From positions 1,228,001 through 1,292,000 of the forward strand of contig NC_046360.1 in the NCBI RefSeq assembly GCF_004027225.2: DNA of 64,000 nucleotides, written 5' to 3'. Below the pieces are notes generated by a model. It saw only the letters and a list, made by a program, of their open reading frames with translations. It was not told the DNA's origin and did no database searches. The position numbers and the translations under genes were made by a program. Below, piece by piece: positions 30,082 to 37,560 of the stretch (the stretch's first letter is position 1; every line of letters begins with the position of its first letter). The stretch comes from Strigops habroptila. Lineage: Eukaryota; Chordata; Aves; Psittaciformes; Psittacidae.

Positions 30082-33000
30082 ATGGCAGAGCCCTGCCCGG
30101 TGCCCACCGCCAGCCCTCCGTGGCAGGACACAGCCCTGCACCCGGCCCCGGGGCCACAAACCCGCCCCAGGGACAAGTGGAGCAAAAAGATGGATTTCCT
30201 GCTCTCGGCCATCGGATTCGCTGTGGATCTGGGCAACGTGTGGCGGTTCCCTTACATCTGCTACCAGAACGGAGGGGGTAAGGACACTGCAAAGGCTTCT
30301 TGTCTCCAGAGAAACCTGGTTTTCATCTTCCCAATGCTGAAAAACTCGTTGTTGCTTTCCTTTCTTTGTCTGCTCTCTGGACAGGGTGGTTTAGAGACCG
30401 ACCCAACTCCTCCTGACCTCTGCCTCTTTTCTGTTTTGTGTCTTTCTTCATCCAAAATCCTCCTCCATTCACTCCTTCCCAGAGCTATCCACTCCTTCCC
30501 AGCGCCATTCACTCCTTCCTGGGGTCATTCACTCCTTCCCAGTGCCATTCACTCCTTCCCGGTGTTATCCACTCCTCAGAGGTGCGTTAGCAGCTCTAGG
30601 ATCACAAAGAGCAAACTACCATGGTCCAAACTGCATAAAAGGATTAAGAATCCATAAATCTGGGCTGGGAGGTTCATCCACTTTACGATCTTGAGGCTTT
30701 GTGAATGCAACCTTTATTCTAACCTCACCCTTGTCAGCATCCCACCCGCCTGCCGCTGATCCCAGCTGATCCCATGGAGCAGGGACACGCAGCCCGTGCT
30801 CAGGGGGTTCAACCTGTGAGTGATCAACACAGAGCTGAGACACAAAAGCTTTGTGAAGGGAAAAACACCCCGAGTAAATGACAACTAAATAAGTTGCTGT
30901 AACTGGAGCAGAGCAGAACCCCCTGTGTGGAAATTAAAGAGGAGGAATTCCGGTTTTGTGCTGTTTGCAGAAGCACAGTGGAGTTAAATTGCCCAAGCCG
31001 GCACTCGGGAAGCATCCTCTGCTGCTTGGGGAATGAGGAAGAGATCATTAGTACCACACTCAAGGCTATGATGGGGATCCCGGGTGCCCACGCTGAAACA
31101 CAGTTATTTGGGATTTACTCCTGTGGGACCGGGAGCGAACTTGAGCTGCTCCGTGTTGGTGTGGTTCAGGGATGTGATTTCCTCACTGACCCCATGCATG
31201 GAGGAGAGTTCCCAGAGCAGCTCTTGGTCCACATGGAGTGGGAATCCTCGAGGGATATCAACAGGAATGTGGCACCGCTGGGCCAGCAGCCCCACCGGGC
31301 AAAGGGGGTGTGGGAGGATGCTGGGGGTGCCCCACCAGCACACAGGGGGCTCTCAGGTAGAAGAGCCACTGGGGTTCAATTAACTAACCCCATCAGGGCT
31401 CTCCTGAGCGTGGAGAGCAGCTCCAGATCCGAAACATCCGCGGGGTGCAAGTGTAGCCTGGTAAAGATGCTGGAGGACAGAAAAAGGGTGAGGACAAAAA
31501 GAGGAAGAGGTCAAAATTCAAACTGAGAGGCTTTAAACTGAGAAAGTGTAGATTGAGATGAGCTCTGAGGCAGAAGTTCTTCCCTGTGAGGGTGCTGAGG
31601 CGCTGGCACAGGTTGGTCACTGTCACTTTGCTCCTCGCCCCGCAGGAGCCTTCCTCATCCCATACACGCTGATGGCTGTTTTCGGAGGGGTTCCCCTCTT
31701 CTACATGGAGCTGGCGCTGGGGCAGTTCCACAGGATGGGCGCCATCCCCATCTGGAAGCGCATCTGCCCCATCTTTAAAGGTAAGAGACCCCCAGGCCAT
31801 GGCCACACACTCGGGTTGGACACCGAGAGGGCTGAACCAGCACCGGCTCCTGAGCCTGCTGCTCTCTATTCCCAGGCATCGGCTTTGCCATTTTCATCGT
31901 TAGCCTCTACGTCTCCTTCTACTACAACACCATCATCGCCTGGGCTCTCTACTACTTGTACTCGTCCTTCTCGGGCTCCCTGCCCTGGGCGAGCTGCGAC
32001 AACCCCTGGAACACACCCCAGTGCACCAACTACTTCGGGAGGAGCAACGTGACCTGGACCAACTCCTCCAGGTCCCCCGCAGAAGAGTTTTATACGTAAG
32101 TAAAACACATTGTGTGCGGATGATGTGTTTAAGCTGGGACACATCCCCATGGAAGCACTTGGGTCCTGGGGAGCAGGACTGGGGTGCAGGGAGCAGAGTG
32201 TCATGTGGAGACGCTCTTGGGGAGCTCATGGTCCCCATTATCAGCGTGCCAGGGGAGAGATGAGGTGGGACTTGCCTGTTCCTGGCTGTGCTGATCCCCA
32301 GCTACGGGGATCCCATCCCGCAGGAGGAAGGTCCTGGAGATCCAGAAGTCTGGGGGTCTGTATGACGTGGGGGGGATCCGCTGGCAGCTGCTCCTCTGCC
32401 TCTTCCTCATCTTCACCATCGTCTACTTCAGCCTGTGGAAAGGGGTGAAAACCTCTGGGAAGGTAAGAAAGAGAACCCAGCTCTAGCCCTGGGCTCACAG
32501 CCTGGCATGGAGCATCCCCACCCCGGCCAGGGCAGGAGGCACCGAGCCCTGGTGGGGTCCTGCAGCTCCCGTGGCTGCTCAAACACGGGCTATTGCCTCC
32601 TCCCCACGCTCCCACCCCTTGGCCGTGCCCAACATGGGCAGTTTGGGTGCTCGATGGAGCAACTGCTTGTGCCACGGGCCTCCTCTCTGCAGGTGGTGTG
32701 GGTGACGGCCACGCTGCCCTACGCTGTCCTGCTCATCCTGCTGGTCCGAGGGGCCACCCTGCCCGGGGCATGGAGAGGGGTCGTCTTCTACCTGCGCCCG
32801 GACTGGGGCAAGCTCCTGAGCACCGCGGTGAGTGCACGGCGGGACCCAGCACCCAAACCCTGGCACAGACACCCCCTGCCCATGGGTCTGGCCTCACCAC
32901 GAGGCGCTGGGGCCCTGGTTCCTACAGAAACAAGAGGCCCTGGACAGGCTCTTGGAAATGTAAATCTATAATTGAATCACCCATCTCATCACCGCTGGGT

Positions 33001-36000
33001 TTTGTTCGTGCCCTGGGCTCACAATGGGCTTCCTGTGGGTAATTACCAGGCAGCACTTGAGAATTCTCATTAAAGGGAATAAGAGCCCCACTGCCAGCAC
33101 TGAAACTGCCCGGGCAGGAGCGGGCATGGGGGGCTCGGGGCTCCCCTTGGCTTCATCCCACCTCCAGACATGGGCACACACAGATTCCGGTGCTTAACCC
33201 TGCTGCTCAGGAGCCCAGGGTGGAAATGAGCCCCCTCCATCCCACAGCAGCTTCCCTGCTCCAAGGACAGCTCCTGGGGGAATGGGGCAGGCAGGAGAGG
33301 AGGTTTGGCAGCATGTGCCAATGCAGGCCCCATCCCTGCGCCATGGGGTGGGCACACCGTGGGGTACCCCCAGCCCTGCCTGTTGCTTCTCCTGCCAGGT
33401 TTGGGTCGATGCTGCCACGCAGATCTTCTTCTCCTTGGGCCCTGGATTCGGCGTCCTTCTCGCTCTGGCCAGTTACAACCCTTTCCACAACAACTGCTAC
33501 CGGTGAGCTCCTGGTGGGATGCTTGGCTGCATCCCGCAGCTCCTGTGTGCCAGGCGGAGCATCCTGCCCCATTTACTGGTGGTTTTGGTGCGTGGGGCTG
33601 GAAAGGGAACCCCTGGGGGTGCTGATCCAGGGTGGGATGCTCCCATGGGGCTCATCTCCCTGTTCTCTGCCCTGCAGGGACGCGCTGGTGACCAGCGCAG
33701 TGAACTGCCTCACCAGCTTCCTCTCGGGCTTCGTCATCTTCACCGTGCTGGGCTACATGGCTGAGATGAGGGACGTGGAGGTGGAAGATGTCGCCAGAGA
33801 TAAAGGTTCAGCTCCCTCCATCACAGCTGCCCCATCCTGCCCCTGTGTGCGCCAGAGCAGCCGGGGAACAGCAAACCAAACCCGTGCCCCCTCCTAGGGC
33901 CGAGCCTCCTTTTCATCACCTACCCTGAAGCGATCGCCAGCATGGTGGGATCCACCTTCTTCGCCATCATATTCTTCCTGATGATGATAACGCTGGGGCT
34001 GGACAGCACGGTAGGTGCCTCCATGCAGCCTGGTGCCCCATGGCTAGCAGTGGGGTGGCAAAGGGAGCTGTGTCCTCAGGGAGGAGGGCAGCCTGCCTGA
34101 GCCCCCTGAGCATGGCAGGGATAGAGGGGACAGGATGGGACACAAGCAGAGGGGCCATGGTGGGACCAGATTGTCTCAGGCAGCGGGACAGTCCCTACAG
34201 CCCATCTCTCCACCCCACTCCCGTGTTCCCTTTGCAGTTTGGGGGCTTGGAGGCCATGATCACAGCCGTGATGGATGAGTACCCACAGGTCCTGGCCGGG
34301 CGACGGGAGCTCTTTGTCCTCAGCCTCATCACCATGTGTTTCCTGGGCTCCCTGAGCACCCTCACCTACGTGAGTAGCACCGGGCTCCACTCCCATCCCA
34401 CCACATCCCTGCTTCTATCTCCAACATCCCACAGTGCAGCACTTTCCCAACAACCTGCAACCGCCCCCCCCGTGCTGTTGCAGGGGGGAGCCTACGTGGT
34501 GAAGCTGCTGGAGGAGTTCGGAGCTGGCTGCTCCATGCTGGCAGTGGTGCTACTGGAAACCATAGCTGTGTCCTGGTTTTATGGTAAGAAACCTCCTCTG
34601 TCCATGACCCCCCCACCCCGCAGGCACCTACACGATGTTCTGCCTCATGCACGTGAGTAAATGCCAGGGGACCCAGGGGCAGAAGCACGTGTGGGATGAG
34701 GCACAGAGCGTGAATGTCCCTGTGCCCACGTCCCCCATGGGCGTCCATGCTGTCACAGCTCTCTTCTCCGCAGGGATACAGAGGTTCTCCCATGATGTGA
34801 AAGCCATGCTGGGCTTCACCCCAGGCATGTTCTGGAAGGTGTGCTGGGTGGCCATCAGCCCTGCCTTGTTAGCGGTGAGTACCTGTGGCCTGGGTTACAG
34901 ACAGGGCTGTCCCGTGCCAGCTCCCTGTGCTGCTGCTGCTCCAGCCCCTGGGACAGCGGTTTCACAATGGAACAAGCTGGAATTACATTTTCCAGCCCCT
35001 TCTGCAGCTCCGGGGCAAAGCTGGGAGCTGGCAGCTCACACGGCACAAGTGCAGCATCGCTTCACCCCCCTGGTCCCACACTTGCGCTGGCACCGCCAGC
35101 CACGGGTACAGCACCGGGCTGGATCCATCCCCTTTGAAATGCAGCTCCCCCAGCACTTCAAAGGCTGCTGAGGGGCAGAGGGGTCTAATCTCACCACATC
35201 TGCGGGAGAAGAGGCCTTGTGAGGATTAATTAGGGCTCTGAGCGCTTGGCCGTGGTTATTAAGAGGGAGGAATTATCATCAAAGCAGACAGCAAGTGATG
35301 CTGTTCAGCACAGGGGACGTGCCGCTTGCGCACGCCACGGTCCCGGGGGGGTTTGTTAAATGAAGACCTCCCAGCCCCACACCTAGCGAGGGCTGGCAGC
35401 TGGGGAGTGTCACTGCAACGTCCCCAGGAGGTTTTGTGCCACCCATGTCATGTGCATGTGGGTTTTGGGGGCTATACAGCCCTGCTGCTCCCTGTGCCTG
35501 CTTCCCACCGGCAGTGGGGTGTCTCCGGCCCCTTGAGCATCCCTCTTTGCTCCATTCATTACAGCTCCTAGTGATCAGCTCCCTCCTGGACCAGCCGCTG
35601 CTGACCCTCTTTGACTACCAGTACCCTGAGTGGAGCATCTCGGTGGGGTATCTCATAGGAGCATCGTCCTTCATCTGCATCCCCTTCTACATGGTGTACA
35701 AGCTCATCTGGACGCCAGGGTCCCTCAAGCAGGTCAGGGTGATGCCACGGCCCCTGCGTGGGCTGGGGGTGTGCAGGGACCCCCTGGGGTGAGCTGGGAC
35801 CAGGAGATGGGCAGATGGTTGACACGTCCTCAGCATCTTTGTTCACATGGCAGTTAAATCACACCCGAGGAGCAGGGCTGGGTGGATAGAACAAGGGGGA
35901 ATGGCTTTAACCTGCCAAAGGGGAGATTGAGATGAGCTCTGAGGCAGAAGCTCTTCCCTGTGAGGGTGCTGAGGCGCTGGCACAGGGTGCCCAGAGAAGC

Positions 36001-36329
36001 TGTGGCTGCCCCATCCCTGGCAGTGTTCAAGGCCAGGTTGGACACAGGGGCTTGGAGCAACCTGCTCTAGTGGAAGGTGTCCCTGCCCGTGGCAGGGGTT
36101 GGAGCTGGAGGAGCTTTAAGGTCCTTTCCAACACAAACCATTCCACGATTCCATATGATTCTGTGGCTTGGGCACGCCGGGGCAGGCAGCCCTGCACATG
36201 GCACCAGGCCCCAGTGCGGGAAGGAAACCCATTGCCTCTTCTCTCCAGCGCCTCGCCGTCTGCCTGCGGCCGGAGAAAGCCGCACGAGCCCCGCAGGCAG
36301 AGGCCGTGCCCATGACTCCTGTGCTGTAG
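30082..36329 (+). CDS. SLC6A4-like: Serotonin-transporter-like SLC6 monoamine transporter (second SERT paralogue)
   Basis: Thirteen coding exons: 30082-30277, 31646-31780, 31876-32095, 32324-32462, 32693-32827, 33399-33502, 33678-33805, 33898-34010, 34238-34369, 34484-34583, 34774-34874, 35565-35732, 36249-36329. Phases all agree, giving 583 residues (human SERT has 630). ATG has A at -3 and G at +4; no in-frame ATG lies upstream. Twelve membrane helices of the LeuT fold are expected. TM1 reads [20 protein letters not shown], with the amine-binding Asp. TM3 has [14 protein letters not shown]6 [15 protein letters not shown]8 LGLDST. Na+/Cl- site residues (Asn of DLGN, Tyr of PYT, Gln of TQIFF, Asn/Ser of VNCLTS, Asp-Ser of LDST) are kept. 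Both ECL2 cysteines are present. SERT-type words ([31 protein letters not shown]) place it nearest SLC6A4, but Tyr95, Ile172 and Ala441 are replaced by Phe, Val and Gly. The tails are short and unlike SERT. It likely imports a monoamine across the plasma membrane with Na+ and Cl-. Confidence 0.93.
30465..30575. repeat. 20-bp minisatellite, about 5.5 units
   Basis: Units of the form CCATTCACTCCTTCCCAGNG, with each unit differing at a few sites. It lies in intron 1 of the SERT-like gene. Pyrimidine-rich on the plus strand. Likely length-polymorphic. Confidence 0.9.
31548..31611 (+). mobile_element. CR1 internal fragment abutting exon 2 of the transporter
   Basis: Matches only the block from gattgagatgagctctgagg to gaggcgctggcacagg of the young CR1 family, and lacks the 3' tail. 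It ends about 35 bases before the exon 2 acceptor at 31645, so a deletion that removed the CR1 tail stopped just short of the branch-point region. Confidence 0.85.
35885..36165 (+). mobile_element. Young CR1 LINE 3' end in last intron of the transporter
   Basis: From acaagggggaatggctttaa through the GAGCTCTGAGGCAGAAGCTC block to cgattccatatgattctgtgg. It ends about 85 bases before the final coding exon at 36249. Confidence 0.92.
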
Positions 36330-36693
36330 CCCGGCGGCACGTCCAGGGGATGCAGAGACTGCTCCGGCTTCCTGCCCCTGCACCATGTGAGCCGTGGGGC
36401 AGGTATGAGAGGAGCTGCCGTCACCCTGCTCACAGCAAACCACCCCCCGCGTCTCCCCCAGCACCGCACGTGCTGCTCTTGGGTCCGCAGCAGGGACCAC
36501 AGGACCCGCTGCTGATTCCCAAGGGCTGTAAGTGAAGAGGCCAAACCAGCTCCTTTGGTTTGAGGGATCCCTGACCCCGGTGAAGACAGAAGCTCTGCCC
36601 AGCAGTGCACATGCCATGCACAGGGAACTCGTGCCCATGCTGTGCTGTGGCCGGAGCAGTGCATGCCTTTAGCCGTGCGTGAGCGACCTGGGA

Positions 36694-36699
36694 AATAAA
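36694..36699 (+). terminator. Poly(A) signal of the SERT-like gene
   Basis: AATAAA about 365 bases after the stop codon at 36327-36329, followed within 35 bases by a GT-rich stretch (gctgctgtcacttgttggg) suited to a downstream element. It is the first canonical signal after the stop. Confidence 0.65.
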
Positions 36700-36949
36700 G
36701 CTGCTGTCACTTGTTGGGTCACTTGTTGGATCAGGCGAGGTGTGAACCAGCTGCACGCTTCCCATTAACGCCACATCCCTTCCAGCGCATCCCTCAGCGC
36801 TTATTATGCCCGTTAAACACTTCCCAGCAGCCACGTTCACCTCCGTGCGGGCAAAGCAGCAGCTCCCAGCGTGTGCTGCTCTGCGGCCATGACCATCGCC
36901 GTCCCCTCCCGCAGGCTTCCCCTCCTTCAGGGTGACCCAGAACAGCGCA

Positions 36950-37560
36950 GGGGAGCGCAGCGAGAGCTGGGGTGGGCATGGGGCTGGAGGGGCACAGGGA
37001 GCTTGGGGTCACAGGGGACTAGGGGAGCACACACGGCTTGGGGGGCACATGGAGCTGGAGGGGGCATATGGAGCTGCAGGGACCACCCGGTCTCATTGGA
37101 TGCTCCCGCTCCGCGGCCCCGGCTGGCCCGGAAGGTGCGGCCGGTCGGGGCGGGGCGGCAGGAAGAGGCGGTCCCGGTGCGGGCGCACAAAGGCGGGCGC
37201 TGTGCGGGTGCGCGGGCCGGTGCCGCGGGATGCCGGCGGTGCGGCGCGGGGCGCTGGCGGCGCTGTCGCTGCTGGGCCCGGCGGAGCGCGGCCGCCCCTA
37301 CGCCGTGCTGCAGAAGCAGAACCTGGGTAAGGGCCGCGGCCTCCCGCGTTGTGCGTTCATTGCTGCGTTATCTGCGCGCTGATGGGGGGGTGCCGGGGCG
37401 GGGGCAGCGCTCGGGCCCTTTAACGTGTCGCCCTCCCGCAGTGCTGCTGGGCAGCATCCTCAGCGCGCTGCTGCTCACCATCATCCTCATGGCCATCTGC
37501 GTCTACAAGCCCGTGCGGCGGCGGTAGCGGGGCCGGAGCCAGGCCCGGGGCTGGGGCCAT
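36950..37560 (+). promoter_or_regulatory. CpG-island promoter of the small membrane-protein gene
   Basis: CpG density rises from about 37100 and covers both exons. GC boxes of the form GGGGCGGGGC occur at 37147-37156, about 75 bases upstream of the ATG at 37230. No TATA box was seen. Confidence 0.65.
37230..37527 (+). CDS. 60-residue single-pass membrane protein; positional candidate for C12orf76
   Basis: Two coding exons, 37230-37326 and 37442-37527, joined in phase 1 by a GT-AG intron. The 60-residue product starts MPAVRRGALAALSLLG, has a soluble word RPYAVLQKQN at residues 22-31, one hydrophobic helix at about 32-53 (LVLLGSILSALLLTIILMA) and ends CVYKPVRRR. The basic tail suggests a cytosolic C terminus. 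An in-frame ATG at 37038 would add 64 low-complexity residues; the shorter start sits right after the GC boxes and has G at -3. I do not recognise the family with certainty. In human, C12orf76 lies beside ANKRD13A and converges with it, as this gene does here, so orthology to C12orf76 is a positional inference. No function is claimed. Confidence 0.72.

Follow-up and report, generated by a model that had tools for sequence, protein, structure and literature searches.

An additional paralogue of the serotonin transporter (SERT) gene SLC6A4, termed SLC6A4B, is described in fish, lizards and birds by Lovell et al. 2015 (PMC4894405). The range given there extends from fish and amphibians to reptiles, birds and metatherian mammals, with the gene reported absent in eutherians. 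Of 28 papers listed for SLC6A4B, 24 concern fish, judging from their titles. In chicken, a "SERT paralog (slc6a4b) VNTR" is listed with impulsive behaviour in a 2023 review citing Abe et al. 2013 (PMC10394247). As for the ordinary transporter, a pharmacological study (PMC4817154) gives A169D and I172V as the sole differences between the chicken and human proteins in the vicinity of the paroxetine site. It states that A169D makes paroxetine about 7-fold less potent, that human SERT carrying Y95F is inhibited more potently by mazindol and less potently by citalopram, with paroxetine little affected, and that Phe occupies position 95 of Drosophila SERT. A modelling study (PMC8015229) names Ile172 and Tyr95 of SERT as differing from the norepinephrine (NET) and dopamine (DAT) transporters. 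Our literature search for whole genome duplication in connection with monoamine transporters and SLC6A4 yielded no publication. Birds serve in serotonin, SSRI and behaviour-genetics research, and where there is another intact SERT gene whose drug site is altered, knockdown of one SERT, pharmacological and candidate-gene studies may miss the other.

The gene considered here lies in a window of 64,000 nucleotides (C11:1228001-1292000), the whole stretch of DNA that was analysed. Very probably it is SLC6A4B of birds, a SERT paralogue that is old in vertebrates and under purifying selection. Like SLC6A4B as characterized by Lovell et al. 2015 (PMC4894405), it accompanies an ordinary SERT gene in the genome of a bird, and it seems to fit that gene as a product of an old duplication; the equation is based on this description and not on an alignment. 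The second avian SERT gene is real but not new, being already published as SLC6A4B.

The window gene occupies positions 30082-36329 of the plus strand. Spliced translation yields 13 exons joined in phase, 12 GT-AG introns and a product of 583 residues, with a single terminal stop and no internal stops. Coding begins in exon 1 (30082..30277) at an ATG which is the first one in frame downstream of a stop and which has, as judged by eye, A at −3 and G at +4; this N-terminus is predicted, and a further upstream exon is possible. Exon 2 (31646..31780, 135 bp) has the length of exon 2 of the ordinary SLC6A4 of this genome. It is followed by exon 3 (31876..32095, 220 bp), encoding TM3 with S169, V172 and S173 (human SERT numbering), and by exons 4 (32324..32462, 139 bp), 5 (32693..32827, 135 bp), 6 (33399..33502, 104 bp), 7 (33678..33805, 128 bp), 8 (33898..34010, 113 bp), 9 (34238..34369, 132 bp), 10 (34484..34583, 100 bp), 11 (34774..34874, 101 bp) and 12 (35565..35732, 168 bp). 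Exon 13 (36249..36329, 81 bp) includes the stop codon. The candidate polyadenylation signal AATAAA at 36694..36699, also on the plus strand, is the sole AATAAA/ATTAAA within 36330-37200. The GC content is 0.531, 0.442 and 0.83 at the first, second and third codon positions and 0.585 in the introns. Intron 1 contains a VNTR-like tandem repeat (30465..30576, plus strand; 5.6 copies of a 20-bp unit), which may be comparable with the intronic VNTR published for chicken.

The Pfam domain PF00209 (SNF) matches residues 30-549 of the protein (E = 6.2e-223, profile positions 1-522 of 524). Given this nearly full-length domain and the retained Na1, Na2 and Cl− ligands, the protein can be assigned with good reason to the SLC6 / neurotransmitter:sodium symporter family. 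In the PDB the protein is matched best by human SERT chains, aligned without gaps over residues 29-572 with E about 1e-270; among the best 60 of 104 matches, the top 13 include 12 labelled as serotonin transporter and one labelled just "Transporter" (8de3). In one alignment the identity equals 69.9% to human SERT (380/544, gap-free), 56.4% to human NET (304/539) and 53.0% to human DAT (287/541); each of the NET and DAT sequences used agrees with a PDB chain along its full length. At 24 of the 251 positions common to human SERT, NET and DAT the window protein departs from human SERT. There are 99 positions at which the two SLC6A4 proteins (from this genome and human) share a letter that none of the three NET/DAT sequences has. 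Of these, the window protein is SERT-like at 61, NET/DAT-like at 24 and neither at 14; the 24 NET/DAT-like letters may be retained or convergent, Phe 95 being present in Drosophila SERT as well. SLC6A2 (NET) and SLC6A3 (DAT) are members of the same transporter family and share F95, V172 and A497 with the window protein, but at 53-56% identity they form a group of their own, supported at 100 and set apart by a long branch (0.627). By identity and by this branch of the unrooted tree, the window protein belongs to the SERT subfamily. Its termini differ from those of the ordinary SLC6A4 of the same genome, with 28 versus 117 residues before the aligned core and TPVL instead of MNAV at the C-terminus. 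The initial annotation, made from the letters of the window, thus proved accurate in start, stop, exon count, GT-AG borders, phase and protein length, as well as in calling the product SERT-like over its whole length (544 residues free of gaps) with substitutions at conserved positions and with different termini.

The ordinary gene was found by searching the genome (1.149 Gb in 89 contigs) with human SERT, which gave 85 exon-sized matches among the best candidates scored. Identity to human SERT was 51-82% in the exons of the window gene and 63-96% in those of a second gene on contig C14; the remaining matches are other SLC6-like loci, where the top identities (up to 79%) occur in single short stretches. 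The second gene was assembled at C14:8767046-8778132 with 13 exons, 0 internal stops and 670 residues. All 11 of its exons 2-12 equal those of the window gene in length, the exon search having permitted lengths 12 shorter to 18 longer. BLMH was not found within about 10 kb of this gene and was placed by a genome-wide search, with the human protein as the query, at C14:8734759-8751640, on the same strand and about 15 kb before the gene. Because of this neighbour and of the higher identity to human SERT, we identify the C14 gene as the ordinary SLC6A4; hence the genome holds both an intact ordinary SLC6A4 and, on C11, the window gene. The ordinary gene has a long N-terminus with a threonine run (L036:546-1008, C14:8767046-8767508), which could vary in length.

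Over 536 gap-free columns, the ordinary SLC6A4 of this genome is 85.6% identical to human SERT, whereas the window protein is only 72.0% and 70.3% identical to these two, respectively, in addition to having a separate locus. This depth is similar to that between human NET and DAT (71.6% over 536 columns). In the maximum likelihood tree of six sequences (LG+G4, unrooted and built with no outside group, the NET of this genome being joined from exon translations whose splice sites were not each checked), the ordinary SLC6A4 and human SERT form a pair with UFBoot 100 and the window gene stays outside. The AU test rejected both alternatives, namely a recent bird duplicate (p 0.0005) and the other placement (p 0.0008). 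Since the pair excludes the window gene and the alternatives are rejected, the duplication predates the split of birds and mammals. The window gene is not the ordinary SLC6A4: it falls outside the bird-human pair, and the copy beside BLMH is the one on C14. Comparison with the ordinary SLC6A4 (NG86, 530 codons) gave dN 0.195 and dS 2.60; as dS is saturated, these values give only an approximate indication that purifying selection has acted from the duplication onward. Measured from the common node, the branch of the window gene is 0.217 long and the path to the ordinary SLC6A4 is 0.260 (0.185 + 0.074).

At what we take to be the Na1, Na2 and Cl− positions, 12 of 12 residues examined are identical to human SERT, in keeping with the earlier claim that all of them are kept. 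Within the S1 site for substrates and drugs, six of the 21 positions examined are changed relative to human SERT (Y95F, A169S, I172V, A173S, T497A and V501M); Y95F, I172V and T497A agree with both NET and DAT, and A169S with DAT only. Residues D98, Y176, F335, F341, S438, T439, G442 and L443 are as in human SERT. In the outer site and gate, two of the ten examined positions differ (F556S and P560Q). Cysteines 200 and 209 of the disulphide and the N217 sequon are kept; position 208 is Q instead of N, and this sequon is lost. In the C-terminal stretch 607-610, R607 is kept, and I608L, I609A and K610V are changed. At the six S1 positions the ordinary SLC6A4 of this genome differs from human SERT twice, by A169D and I172V, the same two substitutions by which chicken SERT departs from the human protein around the paroxetine site according to PMC4817154. 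The ordinary and the window gene are thus alike in the lengths of exons 2-12 (within this genome), in the 12 ion-site residues (human) and in D98, T439 and L443 (both ordinary proteins), and they differ in that the window protein has a shorter N-terminus, no MNAV C-terminus and six S1 changes relative to human.

The product is most likely a plasma-membrane symporter of 12 helices in which, again most likely, the Na+ and Cl− gradients drive serotonin uptake by alternating access, as in SERT; the gene is presumably expressed. Since D98, T439 and L443 are kept, serotonin would be the substrate, and F95, S169, V172, S173, A497 and M501 suggest that SSRIs bind differently. From these residues we predict a symporter for serotonin whose sensitivity to drugs is changed. 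Citalopram binding is expected to be weaker; paroxetine would possibly bind more strongly than to the ordinary bird SERT, there being no aspartate at position 169. The six S1 changes, three of them NET/DAT-like, together with the outer-site changes F556S and P560Q and the missing N208 sequon, leave room for another substrate or drug profile.

An alternative is that the gene is SLC6A4B but has come to transport a different substrate or a wider range of monoamines, as might happen in a lineage that lost DAT. Y95F, I172V and T497A, as in NET and DAT, and the NET/DAT letter at 24 of the 99 separating positions speak for it; nevertheless, we consider it unlikely, given that T439 and L443, both of which are different in NET and DAT, are kept and that the SLC6A4 letter is present at 61 of the 99 positions. 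Phe 95 of Drosophila SERT is compatible with serotonin transport (PMC4817154), and according to PMC4894405 it is NAT, not the serotonin transporter genes, that compensates in sauropsid dopaminergic cells. It is less probable still that the gene merely looks intact, is unexpressed and is heading for loss. The reported absence from eutherians (PMC4894405) implies that the gene can be dispensable, but 583 codons with no stop, intact splice sites throughout and a dN far below dS rule out a pseudogene, and the branch of the window gene is not longer than the path to its ordinary counterpart.

The nearest PDB sequences, among the best 60 of 104 matches, are those of SERT, as they would be if the gene were the ordinary avian SLC6A4, its recent duplicate or a misassembly. 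This explanation has next to no probability. The intact ordinary gene near BLMH on C14, the tree and the AU test (p = 0.0005 for a recent duplicate) refute it, and the two copies of this genome are less similar to each other (72.0%) than the ordinary copy is to human SLC6A4 (85.6%). The ordinary copy also carries D169 and V172, like chicken SERT (PMC4817154), whereas the window gene has S169. With ordinary SLC6A4 represented by one bird and one human sequence, the window protein did not group inside it. The initial annotation had called the gene an additional SERT paralogue distinct from the ordinary SLC6A4 and had proposed dN/dS as a check; the tree support of 100, the AU result and the intact C14 copy sustain the first point, and a dN of 0.195, far below a dS of 2.60 (albeit saturated), speaks against decay. 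Its further suggestion that mammals lost this paralogue holds as regards an old extra copy, but "mammals" is too broad and should read "eutherians", because SLC6A4B is reported to be present in metatherians and absent in eutherians (PMC4894405).

To the left of the window gene, on the minus strand, lies SGSM1, the neighbour named in the initial annotation; it was recovered as a RUN-domain exon and nine tblastn pieces at 61-100% identity, with part of human SGSM1 as the bait. To the right are ANKRD13A on the minus strand (14 bait pieces) and GIT2 on the plus strand (8 bait pieces). Among five exon pieces of the ANKRD13A stretch, Pfam recognized ANKRD13_C in three, ankyrin repeats in one and nothing above the cut-off in one; two pieces of the GIT2 region run against Pfam had no match above the cut-off. 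Human SGSM1 is presumably on 22q and human ANKRD13A/GIT2 on 12q24, in which case the neighbourhood is split in humans. A tentative reading, to which we give rather low probability, is that SLC6A4B kept an older, partly NET/DAT-like pocket (F95, V172 and A497) while the ordinary SLC6A4 changed. Birds would then have a second path of serotonin reuptake with markedly different SSRI sensitivity, and the eutherian loss may accompany the separation of SGSM1 from ANKRD13A/GIT2. Between the window gene and ANKRD13A, a small GC-rich ORF of two exons was noticed by eye (about 37229-37527, plus strand), with 60 residues and one likely membrane helix; it has no Pfam match above the cut-off and, by gene order, is perhaps C12orf76-like.

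SLC6A2 is represented in the genome by one full-looking exon series on contig C26 (101.9 Mb), at G000:C26:18794192-18855502 and onward (L038-L042, L048). A second copy, partial and rearranged, is located on contig C25 (37.4 Mb) at G000:C25:24882286-24910441 (L043-L047) and comprises exon 1 plus three late exons, which are wrongly ordered. If C26 is the Z chromosome and C25 the W chromosome, this copy may be a decayed W-linked partner. The avian NET gene, which we take to be on chromosome 11, would fit this idea. So would the parrot neo-sex chromosomes that are the subject of a 2022 paper (PMC8854603).
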